Of a stretch of 11,341 bases of DNA, positions 2 through 11,341 are shown piece by piece. A program made the translations under genes and the position numbers. Source of the DNA: Fidelibacterota bacterium. Its GTDB lineage: Bacteria; Fidelibacterota; Marinisomatia; Marinisomatales; UBA1611. Position 1 is the first letter of the stretch. Every line of letters begins with the position of its first letter. The stretch is taken from positions 1-11,341 of the forward strand of contig DQOT01000277.1 of assembly GCA_015658495.1 (NCBI GenBank). Direction: 5' to 3'. Below the pieces are notes generated by a model. It did not search any database and had not been told where the DNA came from. It saw nothing but the letters and a program-made list of their open reading frames with translations.

Positions 2-541
2 ATTTCAGATGGAGATACACGTTTCAAATGCGCACCTCCGATTTGGGATGCCGATAACCGGGAAAAACTGTGGTTGGGATTGGAAAAAGGGACAATCGAT
101 TTTATTACCTCGGATCACTCACCATGCACTCCGGAATTGAAAAAGCTGGACACGGGGGATTTTCAAATGGCCTGGGGAGGCATTTCATCGATTCAGTTTA
201 CCCTTCCTGTAATTTGGACGGAATGCAGACAACGTGGGTTTTCCTTAGTTCAACTCGCAGACTGGTTGAGCAAAAGACCTGCAAAATTTATTGGCAAAGA
301 CCAACAAAAAGGCCAGATTGCCCCCGGCTATGATGCGGACCTGGTCTGCTGGAATCCAGACGCAAAGTTTTTGGTAGAACAAACAGCCATTCTTCACAAA
401 CATAAACTGACACCCTACGAAGGCGAGAACCTGTTCGGCACCGTAAATAAGACCTTTCTTCGGGGGAAAAAAGTTTATGAGAATGGAAAATTTATTAAGG
501 CTCCTTTTGGTAAAACTTTAATGAGGAAAAATGGAAATTAA
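2..541 (+). CDS. allB: Allantoinase, C-terminal part (5' truncated by window edge)
   Basis: Allantoinase hydrolyses the hydantoin ring of allantoin to allantoate. It is a cytosolic, metal-dependent enzyme of the amidohydrolase superfamily. The frame is open from base 2, so about 179 C-terminal residues are visible and the N-terminal metal-ligand histidines lie outside the window. Visible signatures are KCAPPI (about residue 9), the metal-binding aspartate in DFITSDHSPC (33-42), and AWGGISSIQ. They are followed by the C-terminal beta-sandwich segment with GQIAPGYDADLV and a late LRGKKVYENG strand. From memory these match E. coli AllB block by block (KCSPPIR, SDHSPC, AWGGI, GRIAPGKDADF). Its stop overlaps the allantoicase start by 11 bases, which indicates one transcript. 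Dihydropyrimidinase is the main alternative, but the KC-PPI and SDHSPC pair and the neighbours favour allantoinase. Confidence 0.93.
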   Translation: MSDGDTRFKCAPPIWDADNREKLWLGLEKGTIDFITSDHSPCTPELKKLDTGDFQMAWGGISSIQFTLPVIWTECRQRGFSLVQLADWLSKRPAKFIGKDQQKGQIAPGYDADLVCWNPDAKFLVEQTAILHKHKLTPYEGENLFGTVNKTFLRGKKVYENGKFIKAPFGKTLMRKNGN

Positions 542-1517
542 AAAAAACCAGGACCTAATTGACCTTGCGGCGGAAGAAAATGGCGGTCGCACTTTATTGG
601 CCAGTGATGATTTTTTCGCTCCGAAAGAAAACCTGCTTAAACCAGGTCCGGCTGTATTCCTTCCTAATAAATACACAGATCACGGTAAATGGATGGACGG
701 ATGGGAATCTCGGAGAAAAAGAACTGCAGGGCATGATTGGTGCATCTTGCGACTTGGGAAACCAGGCGTGATAAAGGAATTGGATATTGACACCAATCAT
801 TTCGTGGGGAATTTTCCATCTCATGCTTCTGTTGACGCAAGTTGGGTGTCTCCTTTTACGGCTTTGGGCGAAATAATGGATGAGGTTAAATGGATGGAAA
901 TTCTTTCCCGGGTTGAACTCCAGGGAGATTCGCAGAACCTATTCACCATTCATGGTGAGACCGCATTTACCCATCTTCGACTTAATATTTATCCCGATGG
1001 AGGTATAGCCCGATTCAGGGTTTACGGGTTTTCTGAAGACAAAGCAAATAATAATTCTTTCATTGATGCAGCCGCTTCCGAAAATGGCGGCGAAACACTT
1101 GCTTGTAGTGACATGCATTTCAGCAATATGAATAACTTGATCAAGCCTGGCTTTGGAATAGATATGAGCGATGGCTGGGAAACGAAACGTCGACGGGGTC
1201 CCGGATACGATTGGGTGATCCTCAAACTTGGACTCCCCTGGATCGTCGAGCGGATTGTGGTGGATACAACCCATTTCAAAGGAAATTTTCCCGACTCTTG
1301 TTCTCTTGAAGGATGCTTTGAACCCGATACAGATTGGGAGGCTTTTCTCACAAACACGATTGAATGGAAAGAAGTACTGACAAATTCAAAACTTTCCGGT
1401 AATCAGGAAAATAATTTTATCATAGACCAGACTTCACCACTTACCCATATTCGATTTAATATCTTTCCCGATGGCGGCGTGAGCCGATTAAGAATAATTG
1501 GTCGCCCAGTCTTATGA
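531..1517 (+). CDS. alc: Allantoicase
   Basis: Allantoicase splits allantoate into ureidoglycolate and urea in the cytosol. The 328-residue protein shows the family's two tandem allantoicase domains. Repeat 1 (about 8-170) and repeat 2 (about 177-328) share the blocks ENGG.TL..SD, N.(L/I)KPG, DGWE..R.R, a DW.IL.LG block, D(T)(N/T)HF.GNFP and TH(L/I)R.NI.PDGG. Length and internal duplication are normal for the family. The ATG at 531 is chosen because a GAGGA stretch lies just upstream and the protein begins exactly where repeat 1 should. It overlaps allantoinase by 11 bases and shares ATGA with the next gene. The urea released would need a urease or urea carboxylase, neither of which is in the window. 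Confidence 0.95.
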   Translation: MEIKKNQDLIDLAAEENGGRTLLASDDFFAPKENLLKPGPAVFLPNKYTDHGKWMDGWESRRKRTAGHDWCILRLGKPGVIKELDIDTNHFVGNFPSHASVDASWVSPFTALGEIMDEVKWMEILSRVELQGDSQNLFTIHGETAFTHLRLNIYPDGGIARFRVYGFSEDKANNNSFIDAAASENGGETLACSDMHFSNMNNLIKPGFGIDMSDGWETKRRRGPGYDWVILKLGLPWIVERIVVDTTHFKGNFPDSCSLEGCFEPDTDWEAFLTNTIEWKEVLTNSKLSGNQENNFIIDQTSPLTHIRFNIFPDGGVSRLRIIGRPVL

Positions 1518-2020
1518 CGGTTGAATCCTTAAATTCATTAACCAAATCTGAAGCATTTGTACAATTTGAAATGTGCTGTGGTGCATCAAATTGGGTTGAA
1601 AAAATGAGTGCTAACCGCCCTTTCCAGAATGATGATGAACTCTTTAAAAAGGCTGAATCTATTTGGTTTTCACTTTCATCAGAAGATTGGTTGGAAGCAT
1701 TCACCCACCATCCAAAAATTGGAGATATTGATTCATTGCGGAAAAAATCCCAGAATACAAAATCATGGTCTGAAAAGGAACAATCGAGCATCCAGGGCGC
1801 GGATGAGGTCATCCTGGAAAATTTGGCTGAATCAAATCGATTGTACAAAGATAGATTTGGGTTTATCTTTATCATCTGTGCTACAGGAAAATCAGCCGAA
1901 GAAATGTTTGCACTTTTAAAGGAAAGACTGAAGAACGATCCAGAAGCTGAACTATTAACCGCTGCTAAAGAACAAAACAAAATCACACAGCTCCGTTTAG
2001 GAAATCTTCTTTCACTTTGA
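1514..2020 (+). CDS. uraD: 2-oxo-4-hydroxy-4-carboxy-5-ureidoimidazoline (OHCU) decarboxylase
   Basis: UraD decarboxylates OHCU to S-allantoin, the third step after urate oxidation. The 168-residue length is typical of the all-helical family. Visible signatures are NRPF near residue 35, the HHPKIGD block carrying the proposed catalytic histidine (about 71-77), and the segment LYKDRFGFIFIICATGKS. The C-terminal KITQLRL block is also present. The ATG at 1514 overlaps the allantoicase stop as ATGA. No strong Shine-Dalgarno is seen, so translational coupling to the upstream gene is likely. The reading frame is intact and no expected block appears to be missing. Confidence 0.94.
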   Translation: MTVESLNSLTKSEAFVQFEMCCGASNWVEKMSANRPFQNDDELFKKAESIWFSLSSEDWLEAFTHHPKIGDIDSLRKKSQNTKSWSEKEQSSIQGADEVILENLAESNRLYKDRFGFIFIICATGKSAEEMFALLKERLKNDPEAELLTAAKEQNKITQLRLGNLLSL

Positions 2021-3456
2021 CATTCTCGCTTACTCCCGATATTATTGACGAAATTAATGGTCGACTCCAGGCTGCCAATACCATTTTCAACACAGCTCAC
2101 CCCGGGGAATCCCCGGACAGGCAACCGGTCCACACCGTTTATGGCGGGGCGCACATTTTCAAGGCAGGATCCGCACAAAAAATGGGGAAATCTGCCCTTA
2201 ATCACCTGAAAACCTATGCACCAAACTTTGTTGATTTCGCAAAAGTTCTCGAATTAAAAGGGCATGAAAGTCTCCCGGAATCAGACGAACAGATTATGGA
2301 CCTTTTAGATCAAATAAACAGAGATCCGAAAGCTGTCCAAAAAATGAATGAAGCAGCATTTTTTGCCTATACCGTTTATCAACGCGTGCTGGAAAAATTA
2401 GAACGTGAACCTGTAGAGGATTTCCGAATCGATTTTGAAGATGGGTACGGAAACCGGCCGGACAAAGAAGAAGATATGCATGCTGTTTCAGCCGCTGATG
2501 AAGTGGCAAAAGGTATGATAGAAAATTCACTTCCGCCCTTTATCGGCATCCGAATTAAACCCCTGACAGAAGAACAGAAAAACCGTGCGATCCGAACCCT
2601 GGACCTGTTCATCACGTCCCTTTTGAAAAAGACAACGGGTAAGTTTCCGGATAATTTTGTTGTAACCCTGCCGAAAGTAACCATTCCCGAACAGGTTTCC
2701 GCTTTGGTTCACCTGTTTGATGCCTTGGAAGCAAAGACTGGCATCCCCGCCGGCTCGCTCAAACTGGAACTGATGATCGAGACACCCCAATCCATCCTGG
2801 ACAGCAATGGAAATTCAGCCCTGCCTACACTGGTCAAGGCGGCAGACGGCAGATGCATGGGTGCACACTTCGGGGTTTACGACTATACCGCATCCACAAA
2901 CATCACTGCTGAATACCAACGCATGACCCACCCGGTTTGCGATTTTGCCCGGCACATGATGCAGGTCGCCCTGGGGGGAACTGGTATTCGGCTATCCGAT
3001 GGCGCGACCAATATCATGCCCGTGGGACCCCACCGGCCAGCGGATGAAAAACCATTAACAGAAAATCAGATGGAAGAAAACCGGCATGCTGTGTATCACG
3101 CCTGGAGATTAAACTTCACCGACATTCAACATTCCCTTAAACAGGGGTATTACCAGGGGTGGGATTTGCACCCGACTCAGTTTCCCCTGCGCTATGCTGC
3201 GGTTTATTCTTTTTTCCTGGAAAGCCTGGAGTCCACATCCCGAAGGTTGAAATCGTTCATGGAAAAAGCAGCCCAGGTAACATTGGTCGGGGGTATCTTT
3301 GACGATGCCGCCACTGGTCAGGGACTACTGAATTATTTTCTCCGGGGTATCAGTTGCGGAGCCATTACGGAAAAGGAAGCTGAGGCAGCGGGACTCACCC
3401 TGAAAGAAATTCGGACACGGTCATTCAAAAAGATTTTGCAAGGAAGACAATCATGA
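2017..3456 (+). CDS. CitE/HpcH-like aldolase-fold protein of unassigned function, in urate operon
   Basis: This 479-residue protein shows scattered motifs of the CitE/HpcH/malyl-CoA lyase-like TIM-barrel superfamily: FRIDFEDGYG (136-145), GIRIKP (177-182), TLPKV (217-221), LMIETPQS (252-259), HFGVYDYTAS (284-293), and GWDLHPTQFP (381-390), which resembles the G-K-x-x-x-HP-x-Q block near the end of CitE-type barrels. The acidic residues in DFEDG and IETP are where this superfamily normally binds Mg2+. It is longer than CitE (about 300 residues) and resembles what I recall as the DUF6986 family; that name is from memory. The TTG start at 2017 overlaps the uraD stop (TTGA), with AGGAAA 12 bases upstream. 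Lying between uraD and uraH, it probably acts in urate breakdown. Ureidoglycolate cleavage or condensation of glyoxylate with an acyl-CoA or pyruvate are inferences; the fold assignment is more secure than the role. Confidence 0.75.
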   Translation: MTFSLTPDIIDEINGRLQAANTIFNTAHPGESPDRQPVHTVYGGAHIFKAGSAQKMGKSALNHLKTYAPNFVDFAKVLELKGHESLPESDEQIMDLLDQINRDPKAVQKMNEAAFFAYTVYQRVLEKLEREPVEDFRIDFEDGYGNRPDKEEDMHAVSAADEVAKGMIENSLPPFIGIRIKPLTEEQKNRAIRTLDLFITSLLKKTTGKFPDNFVVTLPKVTIPEQVSALVHLFDALEAKTGIPAGSLKLELMIETPQSILDSNGNSALPTLVKAADGRCMGAHFGVYDYTASTNITAEYQRMTHPVCDFARHMMQVALGGTGIRLSDGATNIMPVGPHRPADEKPLTENQMEENRHAVYHAWRLNFTDIQHSLKQGYYQGWDLHPTQFPLRYAAVYSFFLESLESTSRRLKSFMEKAAQVTLVGGIFDDAATGQGLLNYFLRGISCGAITEKEAEAAGLTLKEIRTRSFKKILQGRQS

Positions 3457-3800
3457 AAAGTCAAATTACAACCCATGTCCTGGATACGGCCCAAGGACAA
3501 CCGGCAATAAACATCCAAGTCGTTTTGGAAATCCAGCGCAAAGAGGAATCGTGGGAAACTCTAGGCGAAGGCTGCACCGATGCCGACGGTCGAATTAACA
3601 ATCTCCTAACCAATAATGATCCCATATCACCGGGGACCTACCGATTGACTTTCGATGTTTCCTCTTATTTTCAATCCCAGGACGTGGACAGTTTCTATTC
3701 GTCCATCCCAATTGTATTTACCATTAGCGATACTGATCGACATACCCATGTTCCTTTATTGCTAAGTCCATTCGGCTATTCCACCTACCGAGGGAGTTGA
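3453..3800 (+). CDS. uraH: 5-hydroxyisourate hydrolase (transthyretin-like protein)
   Basis: UraH hydrolyses 5-hydroxyisourate, the product of urate oxidation, to OHCU. The protein is 115 residues, the usual length for the bacterial tetrameric enzyme. It starts with the family block ITTHVLDTA.GQPA (about 5-18), which carries an active-site histidine, and ends with HTHVPLLLSPFGYSTYRGS. That end contains the second histidine pair and the diagnostic C-terminal YRGS tetrapeptide, which separates hydrolases from vertebrate transthyretin. There is no signal peptide, so it is cytosolic. The ATG overlaps the aldolase stop as ATGA and is preceded by AAGGAAG at good spacing. Confidence 0.97.
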   Translation: MKSQITTHVLDTAQGQPAINIQVVLEIQRKEESWETLGEGCTDADGRINNLLTNNDPISPGTYRLTFDVSSYFQSQDVDSFYSSIPIVFTISDTDRHTHVPLLLSPFGYSTYRGS

Positions 3801-3805
3801 TCAAA

Positions 3806-4621
3806 ATGGAATGGTACAAAATACACGAGATTCTTAATCTGCTTTTTCGCTGGTTTCACATTATTGCCGGAATCAGTTGGATCGGTCAAACATATTTATT
3901 TAACTGGATGGAAAGAACACTCCCCTTGGAAATTGATTCAGATGCTGGAGATAATGTATCCGGCCAACTCTGGATGGTCCATGGCGGCGGTTTTTACAAA
4001 GTGGAAAAACAAACAAAACCCAGGATCATGCCCCGGACGCTCCATTGGTTCAAATGGGAGTCTGCCCTCACTTGGATCAGCGGTATGTTTCTCCTCATTA
4101 TCGTCTATTATATGGGCGGACTTATGCTTGAGTCGGGCTCAGAAATGTCTGAATTAACTGCAAGTTTAATTGGCATGGGTGTTTTGATCTTCGGGTATGG
4201 GGCTTATCACCTTTTGTGGAACTCTCCACTAGGAACCAATGAAATTGTGGCATCCATTATTTCTTTTATTTTGATCATTGCTCTTTTTGTCGGTTTGGAC
4301 CTTTTATTCAGTTCAAGAGCTGCAATGATGCATATTGGAGCTGCCTTTGGTACGATTATGACAGCCAATGTCTGGATGACTATTTTGCCGGCCCAACGAA
4401 AAATGATTGCATCCGTTGAAAATAATGAACCACCGAACATGTCCCTGGCTACTAAAGCAAAACGTTGTTCCAAACACAATACCTATATGTCCGTGCCGCT
4501 GATCCTGATCATGATCAGCAGCCACTTCCCGGTTACAACGTACGGAAATACGCACAATTGGATTATCCTGGGAGGGTTTATTCTTTTCGGCTGGCTGGCT
4601 GCCAAGTGGATGAGAGGCTGA
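3806..4621 (+). CDS. puuD: PuuD-type membrane urate hydroxylase, no cytochrome c domain
   Basis: This is an integral membrane protein (271 residues from the ATG at 3806) resembling the membrane domain of bacterial urate hydroxylase PuuD, which oxidises urate to 5-hydroxyisourate. Visible features are the first helix WFHIIAGISWIGQTY (16-30), the block GQLWMVHGGGFYKVEKQ (53-69), LHWFKWESALTW (79-90), and several further hydrophobic helices. The last helix ends at about 267, and His 18, 59, 80, 176 and 240 are possible haem or substrate ligands. An in-frame TTG at 3797 touches the uraH stop, but AGGGAG (3791-3796) sits nine bases before the ATG at 3806, so that start is preferred. The characterised enzyme carries a C-terminal cytochrome c domain. 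This protein stops right after the membrane part and has no CxxCH. It would therefore need a separate electron acceptor. No other urate oxidase is in the window. Confidence 0.88.
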   Translation: MEWYKIHEILNLLFRWFHIIAGISWIGQTYLFNWMERTLPLEIDSDAGDNVSGQLWMVHGGGFYKVEKQTKPRIMPRTLHWFKWESALTWISGMFLLIIVYYMGGLMLESGSEMSELTASLIGMGVLIFGYGAYHLLWNSPLGTNEIVASIISFILIIALFVGLDLLFSSRAAMMHIGAAFGTIMTANVWMTILPAQRKMIASVENNEPPNMSLATKAKRCSKHNTYMSVPLILIMISSHFPVTTYGNTHNWIILGGFILFGWLAAKWMRG

Positions 4622-7010: not shown

Positions 7011-7427
7011 TTATTCGTGAGAACATTCGCTGGGAATTTTTCTTCCATCTTCCAGGATAGCCCATTTCCAAATGGGAACCCGTTTCTTGAGCTCGGAGAT
7101 AAACCAAGTCATGGCTTTTAGCCCTTCTTTCCTGTGTTGGGACCACATTACCACATGAAGGCTGGTTTCTCCCACGTTAATTTTCCCGATACGGTGTTTA
7201 CATAATAGATCATTAATTGGAAATTGTTTTACCGTTTCTTCTGCCAAATGTGCCAGTTCTGTCTCGGCCATGCCTTCGTATTGCTCATATTCAAGGGCCG
7301 CAATCTTCCGTCCGTTTTCCGTATCGCGGACCCGGCCGTTGAAGACCAGCTCAGCACCGTCGTTATCACGGTTGTCCTCGCTGGGGAACGGTTTGATCTT
7401 TCCCTGAACAATCTCAGTCCGAATCAC
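7011..7427 (-). CDS. moaE: Molybdopterin synthase catalytic (large) subunit MoaE
   Basis: MoaE converts cyclic pyranopterin monophosphate to molybdopterin using sulfur from the thiocarboxylated C-terminus of MoaD. The protein is 138 residues and intact. Visible motifs are the FNGRVRD block (29-35), LEYEQYEGMA (45-54), HRIGKINVGE (78-87), SQHRKEG (96-102) and KKRVPIWKWA (114-123). Lys114 and Lys121 align with the catalytic Lys119 and Lys126 of E. coli MoaE. The start is GTG at 7427 with GGGGG eight bases upstream. It follows the MoaD-MoeB-rhodanese fusion by 36 bases, so the partner carrier is probably the N-terminal domain of that fusion, although other MoaD copies may exist elsewhere in the genome. 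Confidence 0.95.
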   Translation of the reverse strand: MIRTEIVQGKIKPFPSEDNRDNDGAELVFNGRVRDTENGRKIAALEYEQYEGMAETELAHLAEETVKQFPINDLLCKHRIGKINVGETSLHVVMWSQHRKEGLKAMTWFISELKKRVPIWKWAILEDGRKIPSECSHE

Positions 7428-7463: not shown

Positions 7464-8906
7464 TCAATACAGGTTTAGGCTCGGATCGACCTCGATTGTC
7501 CACTTCTTGATTCCTCCCGTCATGTTCTTCACATCAGGGAATCCCTGTTTGATGAGGTATTCAGCCATTGCGATGGCCCTCGGACCCTCTTTGCAGTGAA
7601 CAACGATTTCCCTGGAAGGATCGAGTTCGTCCAGCCGAGACGGAATGGCGTTCATGGGAATAAAGAGGGCCTCTTTAATGTGGGCAATATCCCATTCCCA
7701 CTTCTCTCTCACATCGAGAATCAGATGGTTCTCTCCACTGTCGAGTTTTTGTTTCACCTTCTGAACCGATAGCTCAGGAACAGTGACCATCTCCTCCAAT
7801 CCTGATACTCCACAGAATCCTTCGTAATCGATGGGTTCGGTGATTGTGGGATTCTCTCCACATACCACGCAATCGGGATTCTTCTGTAGCTTCACTTCAC
7901 GGAAGGTCATGGCGAGAGCATCGAAAAGGAGCAGGCGTCCGATGAGAGTCTGCCCGGCCCCAGTGATCCATTTGATGGTTTCTGTTGCTTGCAGACTTCC
8001 AACCACGCTGGGGAGGACTCCCAACACTCCCCCTTCCGCGCACGAGGGAACCAGCCCTGGTGGTGGTGGCTCTTCGTAAAGACAACGGTAGCAGGGCCCC
8101 TCTTTCGCTTCAAAAAGGGAAACCTGTCCATCGAACCGAAAGATGGAACCGTAGACGTTTGGCTTACCTTGAAACACGCAGACATCATTTACCAAATAAC
8201 GGGTGGGGAAATTGTCCGTGCCGTCGAGGATGATGTCATAGTTTCTGAAAAGTGACACTGCATTTGCCGAGGAAAGGGATTCCGCATAGGTAGTGATTTC
8301 TACATTGGGATTCAACGCCTGGAGTCGCTGTTTGGCAATGGTCAATTTGGGCTTGCCGATCTCAGCCGATGTATAAAGAATTTGCCTCTGAAGGTTTGAA
8401 AGTTCCACCACATCGTAGTCCACAAGACCGATGTGTCCCACGCCGACGGCAGCCAAATAGATGGACGCGGGACTGCCGAGACCTCCCGCCCCGATGATGA
8501 GGACTGATGCTTCTTTCAATTTTCGCTGTCCCCCCAGTCCGATCTCTGGGAGAGAAAAATGGCGGCTGTATCGGAGGTACTCATCTCGGTCAAAGGTCGT
8601 CGCTACTTCCGCCTTGCCGGAAAGTGTCTCCCCTCCGCCCGCAATCGAGGGAATGATCATCACCTCATCTCCATCTTTGATTTTTGTCGCCATGGCATCT
8701 AAGTAGCGGATGTCCTCTCCCCGAACGTATAGATTAACGAAGTTTCGTAATTCTCCTTTCTCGTTGTATAGCTGCGGAGCGAGTTCACTAAACTGACCGA
8801 TAAGGTTTTCGAGTGCTTCTTCCACTGTTTGTCCGTTAACCTCAACCACACTCTCGCCTTCTGTAAACCGCCGCAGTGGTGAAGGAATTTTTATTGAAAC
8901 AGCCAT
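7464..8906 (-). CDS. moeZ: MoaD/CysO-like carrier fused to MoeB/MoeZ adenylyltransferase and rhodanese
   Basis: A three-domain sulfur-activation protein. Positions count from the ATG at 8909. Residues 1-93 are a MoaD/ThiS/CysO ubiquitin-like carrier ending IIPSIAGGGE, with the Gly-Gly at 91-92. Residues about 105-355 are an E1-like MoeB/ThiF adenylyltransferase with the nucleotide loop GAGGLGS (140-146), NLQRQ (172-176), a Zn site CYRC (273-276) and CVVC (347-350), and PPPPGLVPSCAEGGVLGVLP. Residues about 378-475 are a rhodanese domain with the active-site loop CKEGPRA (Cys439). MoeB adenylates the carrier's C-terminal glycine and the rhodanese supplies sulfur to form a thiocarboxylate. ATG codons lie at 8909 and 8906; AAGGAG sits 2 and 5 bases before them, so 8906 is taken here and shortens the protein by one residue. 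The mec stop overlaps this start. Because the carrier is fused at its C-terminal side, the Gly-Gly is not free unless cleaved. Confidence 0.94.
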   Translation of the reverse strand: MAVSIKIPSPLRRFTEGESVVEVNGQTVEEALENLIGQFSELAPQLYNEKGELRNFVNLYVRGEDIRYLDAMATKIKDGDEVMIIPSIAGGGETLSGKAEVATTFDRDEYLRYSRHFSLPEIGLGGQRKLKEASVLIIGAGGLGSPASIYLAAVGVGHIGLVDYDVVELSNLQRQILYTSAEIGKPKLTIAKQRLQALNPNVEITTYAESLSSANAVSLFRNYDIILDGTDNFPTRYLVNDVCVFQGKPNVYGSIFRFDGQVSLFEAKEGPCYRCLYEEPPPPGLVPSCAEGGVLGVLPSVVGSLQATETIKWITGAGQTLIGRLLLFDALAMTFREVKLQKNPDCVVCGENPTITEPIDYEGFCGVSGLEEMVTVPELSVQKVKQKLDSGENHLILDVREKWEWDIAHIKEALFIPMNAIPSRLDELDPSREIVVHCKEGPRAIAMAEYLIKQGFPDVKNMTGGIKKWTIEVDPSLNLY

Positions 8907-9346
8907 CATTTCTCCTTATAGTTTCGTGTGAATTGCAGCTCGTCGAATTGCTGGTGATCATCCGCGAGCATCCACCACCGCCAAGTTTCCAAATACCCCT
9001 CACAAACTGACAGGATCAGATAGACAAATCCCGGCAACGCGTGCTCAAGGTCAAATTGAGATGGGCTGGCCGGGTGGTCGGGATGGGAGTGATAGCCGCC
9101 CATAAGTTGGTAGTCCCACTTCTCCGCTTGGTCTTCGGCTTTAAGAAACTGGTCCGGAGTCATTAAATATCTGTGCGTGCGGCCCCCCGCTCTCTCATTG
9201 CTCACAGATTGTGCTCTGAAGATCTGAAATTCTGTTGGGCTCTCTGTACCAAACAAGAAACCGCAACACTCTTCAGGGTAAGTCTGGAGAGCGTGTCCCT
9301 CAATTCTTGCCATGGCAGAACCAATTGTTACCACATGTTTCGTCAT
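8906..9346 (-). CDS. mec: JAMM/MPN+ metalloprotease, Mec-like
   Basis: A Zn-dependent JAMM (Mov34/MPN+) isopeptidase of 146 residues, the length I recall for mycobacterial Mec, which releases cysteine from the CysO-cysteine adduct. The motif is complete: Glu25/Glu26 in PEECCGFLFG, and H-x-H-x7-S-x2-D as His86, His88, Ser96 and Asp99 in YHSHPDHPASPSQFD. The ATG at 9346 is chosen because it overlaps the stop of the upstream DUF4395-like gene as ATGA and begins just before the domain's first strand. The frame is open further upstream, but that part lies inside the other gene. Its stop overlaps the fusion gene's start. Between cysM and the carrier gene, it probably acts on carrier-cysteine and possibly on the fused carrier itself (inference). 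Confidence 0.93.
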   Translation of the reverse strand: MTKHVVTIGSAMARIEGHALQTYPEECCGFLFGTESPTEFQIFRAQSVSNERAGGRTHRYLMTPDQFLKAEDQAEKWDYQLMGGYHSHPDHPASPSQFDLEHALPGFVYLILSVCEGYLETWRWWMLADDHQQFDELQFTRNYKEK

Positions 9347-9576
9347 TCTTCTGAACGCTGCGGATGTTCGTGCTCTCTCCCCAGGGAACAATTTACACAT
9401 ATTTCAGGGCAGAAAAGGCCAATTTGCGCCAAGACTCGATAAAGGGTGCAGCCGGCACAGAAATCAAATAGCAAGATAACGGTAGACCAAAAGACCACCT
9501 GTAAAGCTACCATACGAGCCGTCCAGGCATTCACAACGGTCGGAAAATAGAATATCGCGGTTTGAGCCGTGCTCAT
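9343..9576 (-). CDS. Short DUF4395-like cysteine-rich membrane protein
   Basis: A 77-residue protein whose middle, FDFCAGCTLYRVL (37-49), resembles the conserved C-terminal end of DUF4395 proteins (a GFC-GC-LY pattern, from memory). One hydrophobic segment spans about 21-40 and a weaker one lies near 7-16. Five cysteines occur at 40, 43, 56, 60 and 63, the last three in a second cluster (FCPEICVNC). DUF4395 proteins as I recall them are about twice this length with more membrane segments, so this is either a short form or a truncated copy. The ATG at 9576 is preceded by GGCGGG; the frame stays open to 9624 and includes a GTG at 9585. The stop overlaps the mec start as ATGA, which argues that it is translated. 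DUF4395 genes often sit near sulfurtransferases. The function is unknown; handling of reduced sulfur or redox at the membrane is a guess. Confidence 0.65.
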   Translation of the reverse strand: MSTAQTAIFYFPTVVNAWTARMVALQVVFWSTVILLFDFCAGCTLYRVLAQIGLFCPEICVNCSLGREHEHPQRSEE

Positions 9577-9633: not shown

Positions 9634-10596
9634 TCAATCTTTCCACAATCCCGTACCGCCATACCGTTCGCCAGTATCATTGAGCAGTGTAACGACTCGA
9701 GCGTCAGGGTAGCGCTCCAAGACCCGCTCCACGCCCACTAGATAGGCGCCCGAAGATTGCCCGACGAAGTGCCCCGCCTTAGCCAGCCGATGGCAATAGT
9801 GGCGGGCCTCATCGGCCGTCACATCGACATTTTCATCGATGACCGTCTCATCGAGAATTTCCGGCACAACATCTTGTGGTTCGCCCAGAGGTTTGAGGCC
9901 TTCGATTCCTGGGAATCTTTCAGGCCGAACAGACACCACCGTCACTTCGGGAGTCTCCTCCTTCAACCGCCTTCCGATGCCGGAGATGGAGCCGCCCGTT
10001 CCGATACCGCAGATAAAATGGGTCAAGTCTGGTGCCTGCTCCAAAATCTCCTGAGCAGTGGTCTCATAGTGGGCCAACCAGTTGTCATCATTGGAGTACT
10101 GATCGGCAAAGAAGTATGCATCGGGATTCTTCTCATAGCGACGATGGACCTCGCGTAGGGCTTCATCGTACCCTTCCAGGGGGTCCGTCAGAATAACGTT
10201 TGCACCATGAGCCCTGATCCTCATCAGTCGACCTTCGCTGGCATTGCCGGGAATCACGAGCTCCACCGCATGACCCAGCGCCCCACCTAACATGGCGTAA
10301 GCGATCCCCGCATTCCCCGAGGACGAATCGAGGATCACTTTATCCTCAGCCAATTCCCTCCGCTCCCGGGCTTTCAGGAGAATTTTTGCCACGGGACGGT
10401 CCTTGAGGGAACCTCCCGGATTCAGGTACTCCGCCTTAGCGCAGACCATCGCCTTTGGAAACTCCTCGCGGAAAAGATCAATCCGTACCATCGCCGTGTT
10501 TCCGATGAGATCGAAGATTTCAATACTTCGGTTTTGGCCCACATTTCTGGAACCCGTAACGGCAGGTCTTGTCGTTTCTTTAACAAGCACGCTCAT
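9634..10596 (-). CDS. cysM: Cysteine synthase, CysM-type PLP enzyme
   Basis: A cytosolic PLP-dependent beta-replacement enzyme of 320 residues. Visible motifs are NPGGSLKDRP (59-68) with the Schiff-base Lys65, the substrate loop SSSGNAGIAYA near 91-101, the phosphate-binding loop GTGGSISG near 199-206, FPGIEGLKPLG in the middle of the C-terminal half, and the terminal DTGERYGGTG. It makes cysteine from an activated serine (O-acetylserine or O-phosphoserine). In actinobacteria the CysM partner of CysO uses O-phosphoserine and takes sulfur from the CysO thiocarboxylate. Having mec and a CysO-like carrier in the same operon supports that route here. The donor substrate cannot be settled by eye, and cystathionine beta-synthase is a less likely alternative. 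The ATG at 10596 has no clear Shine-Dalgarno. It is the first confident gene of the - strand run, 57 bases before the DUF4395-like gene. Confidence 0.92.
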   Translation of the reverse strand: MSVLVKETTRPAVTGSRNVGQNRSIEIFDLIGNTAMVRIDLFREEFPKAMVCAKAEYLNPGGSLKDRPVAKILLKARERRELAEDKVILDSSSGNAGIAYAMLGGALGHAVELVIPGNASEGRLMRIRAHGANVILTDPLEGYDEALREVHRRYEKNPDAYFFADQYSNDDNWLAHYETTAQEILEQAPDLTHFICGIGTGGSISGIGRRLKEETPEVTVVSVRPERFPGIEGLKPLGEPQDVVPEILDETVIDENVDVTADEARHYCHRLAKAGHFVGQSSGAYLVGVERVLERYPDARVVTLLNDTGERYGGTGLWKD

Positions 10597-10806: not shown

Positions 10807-11136
10807 TCAATCGATATTCAGTTGAATGTTTTCTCTTTCAAGAATTGTTTTGAATTCACCCGAGTTGTGCATCTCGATCGTGATATCCGCACCACCAATC
10901 AGTTCACCATTAATAAATAACTGAGGGATGGTTGGCCAGTTTGAATAATCAGCTAGCTTTACTCGAATTTCAGGATTTTCCAGTACATTTACATCCTTGA
11001 ATTCCACACCATATTGTCTGAGTACCTGCACTACAGAATTGGAAAACCCACACATTGGCATATCTTGAGTGCCTTTCATATACAGTATTACAGGGTTATT
11101 TTTAATATCCTTAGTAATCTGTTCTTTTAATTCCAT
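10807..11136 (-). CDS. grxD: Monothiol glutaredoxin, CGFS type (GrxD/Grx4-like)
   Basis: A cytosolic monothiol glutaredoxin of 109 residues. CGFS-type glutaredoxins bind a [2Fe-2S] cluster between two monomers with glutathione and pass it to apo-proteins. Visible motifs are ILYMKGT (17-23), MCGFS (28-32) with the single active cysteine, WPTIPQLFINGELIGGADI (67-85) including the cis-proline TIPQ block, and a short C-terminal helix. Length matches E. coli GrxD. The ATG at 11136 has AAGAGG five bases upstream, lying in the 12-base gap after the preceding gene's stop, so the two genes are probably co-transcribed. The DNA is much richer in A+T than the cysM region, which suggests a separate unit. 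Confidence 0.96.
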   Translation of the reverse strand: MELKEQITKDIKNNPVILYMKGTQDMPMCGFSNSVVQVLRQYGVEFKDVNVLENPEIRVKLADYSNWPTIPQLFINGELIGGADITIEMHNSGEFKTILERENIQLNID

Positions 11137-11148
11137 ATTAACCTCTTT

Positions 11149-11341
11149 TTATTTATTCCATTCTCTGTTGAAATATTCTTTCATTTCTTCTTCAGTCATA
11201 TCATTAGTTATATCTACCGGTTTTTCAATTGAATCTTCTGTTACTTTTAAGGCTCCAGGAAATTCTCTATCAATAAATGGATGACCTTTTGGTACTCCAC
11301 CTGACCTATTAAATGTAATTACATCAGTTGTAAATTCGTGA
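11149..11341 (-). CDS. C-terminal end of an unrecognised protein (truncated by window edge)
   Basis: The frame is open from the right edge of the window to a TAA at 11149-11151, giving 63 C-terminal residues. The visible part starts HEFTTDVITFNRSGGVPKGH, continues PFIDREFPGALKV, and ends with an acidic helix-like tail, TEEEMKEYFNREWNK. I do not recognise the family; no cysteine, membrane segment or known catalytic motif is visible. Codon use is AT-rich like the following grxD, whose ATG is 12 bases downstream. The shared transcript suggests a link to iron-sulfur or redox metabolism, but only by association. Confidence 0.7.
   Translation of the reverse strand, partial: HEFTTDVITFNRSGGVPKGHPFIDREFPGALKVTEDSIEKPVDITNDMTEEEMKEYFNREWNK

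Follow-up and report, generated by a model that had tools for sequence, protein, structure and literature searches.

A sulfur carrier fused to its own activating enzyme and a JAMM peptidase that may free it in a candidate cysteine cassette of Fidelibacterota

Ubiquitin-like sulfur carriers of the MoaD/CysO family need a free C-terminal glycine for activation. How, then, can such a carrier work when its Gly-Gly lies inside a longer protein? This question is raised by contig DQOT01000277.1 of a Fidelibacterota bacterium (GenBank assembly GCA_015658495.1), whose 11,341-nucleotide stretch is called the window here. On its minus strand, a carrier is fused in front of a MoeB-like activating enzyme (E1) and a rhodanese, and the gene directly upstream encodes a JAMM metallopeptidase. 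An earlier note on this DNA suggested that the peptidase releases the carrier or that the carrier acts by some undescribed route. We consider it probable that the locus is a cysteine cassette of the CysM-Mec-CysO type, in which the JAMM frees the carrier by cutting after Gly92, and that in this genome the carrier also feeds molybdenum cofactor (Moco) synthesis.

In this mechanism, the fusion would be an inactive precursor in which a CysO-type carrier is joined to its own E1-rhodanese. A JAMM cut after Gly92 would split it into a carrier with a free Gly-Gly end and a MoeZ-like E1-rhodanese. The E1 would then adenylate the carrier, the rhodanese would provide sulfur to form the thiocarboxylate, and the carrier would pass this sulfur to the neighboring cysteine synthase. 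The same JAMM would free cysteine from the carrier-cysteine adduct, and the carrier would probably also serve Moco synthesis in the window's genome. We infer the cut, the thiocarboxylate and both uses from sequence comparisons. The gene order, the domains, the conservation of Ala-Gly-Gly (AGG) at the junction, its co-occurrence with a JAMM and the decay of the Gly-Gly in a genome where no such JAMM was found are presented below.

The fusion and its cassette

The genes concerned are as follows.
7464..8909, minus strand: fusion gene of 481 residues, CysO/MoaD-like carrier, MoeB-like E1 and rhodanese (open reading frame (ORF) list, Pfam, PDB match)
Domain bounds of the fusion: carrier, residues 1-92; linker, ~93-105; MoeB-like E1, ~106-352; rhodanese, ~372-481
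8634..8642, minus strand: codons of A90-G91-G92, with the predicted cut after Gly92, between 8634 and 8633 (computed from the ORF)
8906..9400, minus strand: JAMM/MPN+ (Prok-JAB) metallopeptidase, the predicted processing and cysteine-release enzyme (ORF, Pfam)
9634..10596, minus strand: cysteine synthase of the CysK/CysM family (PALP), the upstream gene of the cassette (Pfam)
7011..7427, minus strand: MoaE, the catalytic subunit of molybdopterin synthase, at the place that MoeB-MoaD adjoin in family relatives (Pfam)

The minus-strand order is glutaredoxin, cysteine synthase, JAMM, fusion and MoaE, and an operon was deduced from gene order and strand. The cysteine synthase and JAMM ORFs are separated by 233 nt. 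The overlapping stop and start that had been reported for the JAMM and the fusion were borne out: they share 4 nt (ATGA), and the upstream product matches Prok-JAB at 73.7 bits in Pfam. The fusion starts with an ATG at 8909-8907 followed by a second at 8906-8904, which explains why the gene had previously been ended at 8906. The earlier note saw a self-contained unit here. The protease does lie beside the fusion, but a cysteine synthase belongs to the unit as well, as does MoaE in this genome.

Pfam placed ThiS at residues 6-92 (42.7 bits), ThiF at 114-348 (289.1 bits) and Rhodanese at 382-471 (71.8 bits) of the fusion, all above the curated cut-offs, so the three-domain architecture first read by eye holds. 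Residues 2-92 match PDB chains 4n6e_B and 3dwg_C, which we take to be CysO proteins. In the E1-rhodanese, D166, R175 and D232 (presumably the adenylation site), C273/C276/C347/C350 (presumably the zinc cysteines) and C439 (presumably the rhodanese cysteine) are all present. The JAMM is likewise complete at its metal site and stands in the same operon; E44, H104-S105-H106, S114 and D117, which we take to be the JAMM motif, are kept in 20/20 aligned JAMMs, and its nearest solved relative by sequence is 2kcq. For the cysteine synthase, a PDB sequence search gave as nearest solved structures chains that we take to be E. coli-type CysM, and mycobacterial CysM was not recognized among the best 60 of 154 PDB profile matches.

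The Gly-Gly junction and the JAMM

Window residues 90-93 are A-G-G-G, and the carrier had been taken to end with the three glycines at 91-93. The conserved part is A90-G91-G92, which is invariant across an alignment of 44 proteins (that of the window plus 43 found by searching with residues 1-130), and G93 is not conserved. AGG was found in 42/42 and 33/33 fusions in two sets, each non-redundant at 85%, with an entropy of 0, while position 93 had entropies of 3.0 and 2.4 bits and the linker varied over 10-38 residues. The set of 33 came from a pattern scan in which one of the two patterns included AGG and is therefore biased, the set of 42 less so. After pooling at 80% non-redundancy, AGG stood in 61/61 fusions. 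A search limited to the residues before the glycines gave AGG in 120/120 of the best 120 of 567 matches, mostly from one clade. These junction sets were assembled before the G079 clade described below was found and do not contain it.

The residue that follows AGG in the 61 fusions is S, A, T, V, K, G, Q, D, N, I, E, R or L. The earlier note had asked whether Gly-Gly plus a following residue is conserved: the Gly-Gly is, the following residue is not. Proline is absent from this position (0/61 compared to 12% at positions 2-8; p=4e-4), as expected if a peptidase cuts that bond. The end of the free carrier had been placed at Gly92 or Gly93; since Gly93 is not conserved, Gly92 is the predicted end. 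In the window, the codons directly after AGG are GGG GAG ACA, so that the predicted cut falls between AGG and GET.

An alignment (A3) was made of the window, 37/43 homologues, 36/46 of the named-locus fusions described below and 16 phylum loci, without the G079 clade. The homologues omitted were P0038, three truncated proteins and two near-duplicates. The ten loci omitted, mostly for truncated or over-long ORFs, were L016, L022, L023, L037, L041, L042, L045, L051, L054 and L078, and all ten fusions also have AGG. P0038 (334 residues) has a CysO-like carrier and AGG followed by a PAPS-reductase domain in place of the E1 and is another internal Gly-Gly fusion, unless it is an assembly artefact.

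Next, the phylum was surveyed by a genome search with domain scans of the loci, which gave the fusion in 23/245 genomes. Two of the 23 are partial at contig ends (G175 and G192), and G192 was left unread because its contig begins inside the fusion. A same-strand upstream JAMM accompanies 21/22 readable fusions, overlapping or within ~30 nt in 20 and ~0.8 kb off in G123. A cysteine synthase lies ahead of the JAMM in all 21 of these loci (the window and 20 others). AGG is present in every phylum fusion but that of G079.

Family searches covered a sample of 149 of the 245 genomes, to which the genome-wide JAMM search was also limited. The sample held 17 AGG fusions and that of G079, which the carrier search missed and which was found via its E1. 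Of the 86 matches in the carrier search, 17 were the fusions and 50 were free carriers; the remaining 19, weak and partial in frames of 503-890 residues, were not counted. JAMMs above 60 bits were called strong, a line set after seeing a gap between 64.8 and 40.1 bits. Matches of 25-40 bits were not counted as Mec-like, such as those in G036 (140-residue frame, 40.1 bits, no carrier found) and G135 (39.5 bits, a 580-residue protein). A strong JAMM lies within ~1 kb of the fusion in all 17 AGG-fusion genomes. Outside the fusion genomes, the sole strong match in the sample was in G138. Free carriers end exactly at GG in 48/50 cases, and G138 holds both of the tailed ones (SSW and SGAG). One of these, the MoaE-adjacent carrier (L117), runs three residues past GG as PPVQGG-SSW in a genome with a strong JAMM and is possibly a second JAMM substrate. 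Among the 48 sampled carrier genomes, a strong JAMM is present in 18/18 with a carrier extending past an intact Gly-Gly and in 0/30 of the others, in which every intact carrier stops at GG, with G079 placed among the 30 (Fisher p=1e-13, ignoring kinship). Counted by carrier, 19/19 with residues after Gly-Gly and 15/48 bare carriers are in strong-JAMM genomes. G237 encodes an unfused carrier whose tail is three residues long; no JAMM was found on its 3.5-kb contig, the part of the genome that was searched.

The association extends beyond the phylum. A domain scan of 80 named loci identified 46 fusions, with AGG in 46/46, a JAMM on the locus in 41/46 (upstream in 39; downstream in L037 and L038) and a cysteine synthase in 37. 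By record titles, the hosts include Acidobacteria, Bacteroidota, KSB1, Chloroflexi, Gemmatimonadota, Verrucomicrobia, Gammaproteobacteria (Shewanella, Moritella) and Thermoplasmata archaea; L041 comes from the cultivable Moritella sp. PE36. CysM, JAMM and fusion are co-located in both bacteria and Thermoplasmata archaea. Five fusions have no JAMM on the locus. Three of them have one elsewhere in the genome (L022, L032 and L071), and the distant JAMMs of L032 and L071 adjoin a cysteine synthase.

Unfused carriers were found in the named loci as 35 ORFs at 34 loci and follow the pattern in part. Where a JAMM is on the locus (n=22), 18 have 1-20 residues after GG and 4 are bare. Among the 13 unfused carriers with no JAMM on the locus, 7 are tailed. 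Twelve of the 13 were searched genome-wide, leaving out L059 at a contig edge. In the tailed six, Prok-JAB exceeds 60 bits elsewhere in L056, L068, L079 and L086, and partial matches were found in L066 (51.8 bits) and L074 (38.6 bits in a long frame). In the bare six, a strong JAMM is in L067 (74.8 bits), L081 has a partial match of 29.4 bits in a long frame and the others have <=24.1 or none. In several cases the fusion appears split: the carrier ORF continues for only 2-20 residues beyond AGG, and the E1 begins nearby in an ORF of its own, sometimes overlapping in another frame (L064, L066, L069, L070, L072, L073, L076, L077 and L084). These loci are from Acidobacteria by record title or, presumably, by taxonomy.

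The strongest evidence linking the intact junction to a JAMM is the G079 clade, which suggests how the carrier fares where such a JAMM is missing. G079 (94% complete) encodes the full fusion with ASG in place of AGG, and its relatives P0164 and P0166 have AAG and SEG. In the G079 genome the best Prok-JAB match genome-wide is 23.8 bits, below the cut-off, and no JAMM was found in 20 kb around the fusion (~9 kb each side), where a pyridoxal-phosphate enzyme gave a weak match of 33 bits. A free carrier ending in GG adjoins MoaE in this genome, and the fused E1 is the sole E1. The absence of a JAMM in the clade was seen in G079 alone, as the genome context of P0164 and P0166 was unreadable. In two of three clade pairs, carrier identity is 0.57-0.59 at an E1 identity of 0.91, compared to an average of 0.81 (standard deviation (SD) 0.07, lowest 0.66) in 37 intact pairs of like E1 identity. 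The three clade carriers score 2.0-2.9 SD below the expectation from intact fusions, of which the lowest is 0.85 below, and the clade E1 retains all but two or three of the 95 most conserved positions. The conserved E1 and diverged carrier suggest that selection was maintained on the E1 and apparently not on the carrier. Junction glycines lost beside a free carrier, the combination that the earlier note held against release, were found only in this small clade (G079, P0164-P0166), and this exception supports release by the JAMM because no Mec-like JAMM was found in G079, the member with a searchable genome, either. Together with AGG conservation and JAMM co-occurrence, this clade gives the proposed release of the carrier comparative support.

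Cysteine and molybdenum cofactor

With a cysteine synthase adjoining, the CysO pathway is the natural reading of what the carrier would do. In mycobacteria, MoeZR makes the CysO thiocarboxylate, CysM makes the adduct and Mec frees cysteine, and MoeZR also charges MoaD proteins (PMC3227635; this and the other papers are cited from excerpts of their text). Seen from the carrier, AGG joined to the linker resembles AGG joined to cysteine, which makes it plausible that a single JAMM cleaves both bonds.

In 15/17 AGG-fusion genomes no E1 besides the fused one exceeds the cut-off, the exceptions being G008 and G052. A free GG-ending carrier is also present in 13/17. Eleven of the 13 have no second E1 above the cut-off, and in those eleven genomes the free MoaD adjoins MoaE, so the E1 half presumably charges this second carrier in trans, like MoeZR of mycobacteria. 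G007, G019 (69% complete) and G107 have the fusion, and no MoaE was found in their genomes, which argues that the fusion is not primarily for Moco. A main role in Moco was dropped on the basis of these three genomes and the 13 with a separate free carrier.

The window's genome (82% complete, 5% contaminated) has one each of ThiS, ThiF, Prok-JAB and MoaE above cut-off, all in the window. The fused carrier adjoins MoaE and is the only carrier found, and at 82% completeness a free MoaD may have been missed. Family relatives such as G119 and G148 have MoeB, MoaD and MoaE side by side, and the window's fusion occupies the MoeB-MoaD place. MoaE itself is typical of the order, with 71% identity to that of G018 and 69% and 71% to those of the same-genus G119 and G163. 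The simplest reading is that a cysteine cassette displaced MoeB-MoaD beside MoaE and may now serve both pathways. In three genomes of the window's family (G174, G175 and G148; L164, L165 and L166), the MoaE-adjacent MoeB is extended at its N-terminus by ~95 residues that match rhodanese weakly (14-25 bits); Pfam gives none (L166).

A fuller account can be offered only tentatively, and we lean slightly toward doubting it as a whole. It holds that one JAMM both matures the precursor and frees cysteine, which would lock carrier supply to product release; that the cassette displaced MoeB-MoaD and feeds both cysteine and Moco; and that the G079 fusion is an E1 with a dead carrier.

Alternatives, precedents and neighboring genes

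Several results weigh against a JAMM-cut cysteine cassette. The line between strong and weak JAMMs was drawn after the fact, the counts ignore relatedness and several genomes are incomplete. Because the cassette travels as a block, JAMM co-occurrence is partly shared history. Two fusions in other phyla are exceptions to a strict AGG-JAMM rule: L017 keeps AGG with no Prok-JAB match genome-wide, and L026 keeps AGG with a 20.5-bit match only and no Mec-like JAMM found (genome completeness is not given for either). Bare-AGG carriers also lie 0.4-1.1 kb from a JAMM in L049, L057 and L065. Such carriers, near a JAMM or sharing its genome as in L067, suggest that the JAMM has work besides processing. 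The third G079-clade pair (carrier 83% at E1 94%) is not unusual. In the window's own family, G175 has the cassette at a contig end plus a MoeB beside MoaE. Lastly, because the cysteine synthase is nearest to E. coli-type CysM, its use of a thiocarboxylate over sulfide or thiosulfate is only surmised.

One alternative explanation is that another cellular protease cuts after Gly-Gly and the JAMM only hydrolyses the carrier-cysteine adduct. The protease that cuts M. tuberculosis MoaX was not identified by its authors (PMC4326299), and the bare-AGG carriers near JAMMs and the AGG of L017 and L026 would fit. We find it unlikely, since extension past an intact Gly-Gly tracks a strong JAMM by genome (18/18 against 0/30) and the Gly-Gly has decayed in G079, a genome whose search yielded no such JAMM.

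Another possible explanation is that the fused carrier is a docking or structural domain and that free MoaD proteins transfer the sulfur. The 13 AGG-fusion genomes with a free carrier, in 11 of which no other E1 exceeds the cut-off, could be read this way, and the G079 clade retains a decayed carrier domain, so a non-substrate state can persist. A domain kept for docking would not explain AGG in all 21 phylum fusions with a JAMM and in the pooled 61/61. Furthermore, G007, G019, G107 and the window's genome (the second and last being 69% and 82% complete) have the fusion and no other carrier was found in them. On these two grounds a mere docking domain was rejected as quite improbable.

That the carrier acts uncut through undescribed chemistry, as the earlier note had allowed, or cuts itself is very improbable: the first found no support here, known activation requires a free C-terminal glycine, and carrier decay in the G079 clade would lack an explanation. 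Self-cleavage was rejected because the residue after AGG is not fixed, which makes an intein-like reaction via Ser/Thr/Cys unlikely. Least probable of all is that translation makes the free carrier or E1 by an internal start, a frameshift or termination at the junction; some unfused relatives do stop a few codons past AGG with a separate E1 start, but the window has no in-frame ATG, GTG or TTG between AGG and the E1 start, its shifted frames stop after 14 and 9 codons with no bare GG end, and 43/53 fusions have no in-frame ATG there (10 have one).

Release of the carrier by the JAMM is thus the explanation we prefer, and its parts have precedents. In QbsE/QbsD and HcyS/HcyD, a JAMM matures the carrier by trimming the one or two residues that follow its Gly-Gly, whereas the window's "tail" is a whole enzyme. 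Fused carriers with an internal Gly-Gly that must be cut for function are M. tuberculosis MoaX, cut between Gly82 and Ser83 (PMC4326299), and Deinococcus radiodurans MoaD-MoaE, cut by DrJAMM (PMC8832034). The partner in both is MoaE, the acceptor. In the window the carrier is instead joined to the activating enzyme, and the operon includes the JAMM.

An operon of ThiS/MoaD, E1-rhodanese, JAB and cysteine synthase was described by Iyer et al. (2006; row 4c), who raised the possibility that the JAB peptidase severs carriers from fusion partners (PMC1779556). The M. tuberculosis mec+-cysO-cysM/MoeZR pathway (rows 4c/4d, PMC1779556) has the same four activities as the window's cassette. The window differs in having carrier and E1-rhodanese in one polypeptide with the Gly-Gly internal, and in a cysteine synthase that is nearest, among solved structures, to presumably E. 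coli-type CysM. MoaD-MoeBR fusions of the same domain order were reported in Poseidoniales, with transfer from Acidobacteria suggested (PMC11237513), which agrees with the caution that the architecture may not be unique. In the excerpts of that paper, which also has thaumarchaeal MoaD-MoeB fusions, the MoaD-MoeBR fusion is linked with neither a JAMM nor a cysteine synthase and its processing is not discussed; our fusions were also found in Marinimicrobia, Bacteroidota, Chloroflexi, KSB1 and Gammaproteobacteria. Among the literature matches listed (titles and abstract openings), no work on cutting a carrier-MoeB-rhodanese fusion was found. The architecture is therefore known and the cutting mechanism has precedents. 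What appears new from the comparisons is that the fusion belongs to a CysM-JAMM cassette, that Gly-Gly goes with the JAMM in the phylum and that the cassette apparently took over a place beside MoaE.

Processing of the fusion can now be tested directly: both the cut (after Gly92) and the enzyme are predicted, and the G079 clade serves as a natural negative control. The system would exemplify a ubiquitin-like carrier that is synthesized as a precursor and probably released by a JAMM, which is possibly used twice, and a cysteine cassette that apparently took over cofactor synthesis. It also bears on annotation, as several of the fusion proteins here are labelled simply MoeB in their source annotation.

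Upstream of the cassette, two further features were identified.
10807..11136, minus strand: glutaredoxin (Pfam)
11149..11341, minus strand: open-ended ORF, BolA-like by eye, without a Pfam match

The glutaredoxin carries CGFS, presumably a monothiol motif. At the other end of the window, the plus strand (2-4621) holds a urate-degradation run of an allantoicase, an OHCU decarboxylase, a DUF6986 protein, a HIUase and a Urate_ox_N protein (Pfam), preceded by the end of an ORF that is allantoinase-like by eye. A molybdenum enzyme is a common source of urate, and the run may therefore bear on the nearby MoaE.
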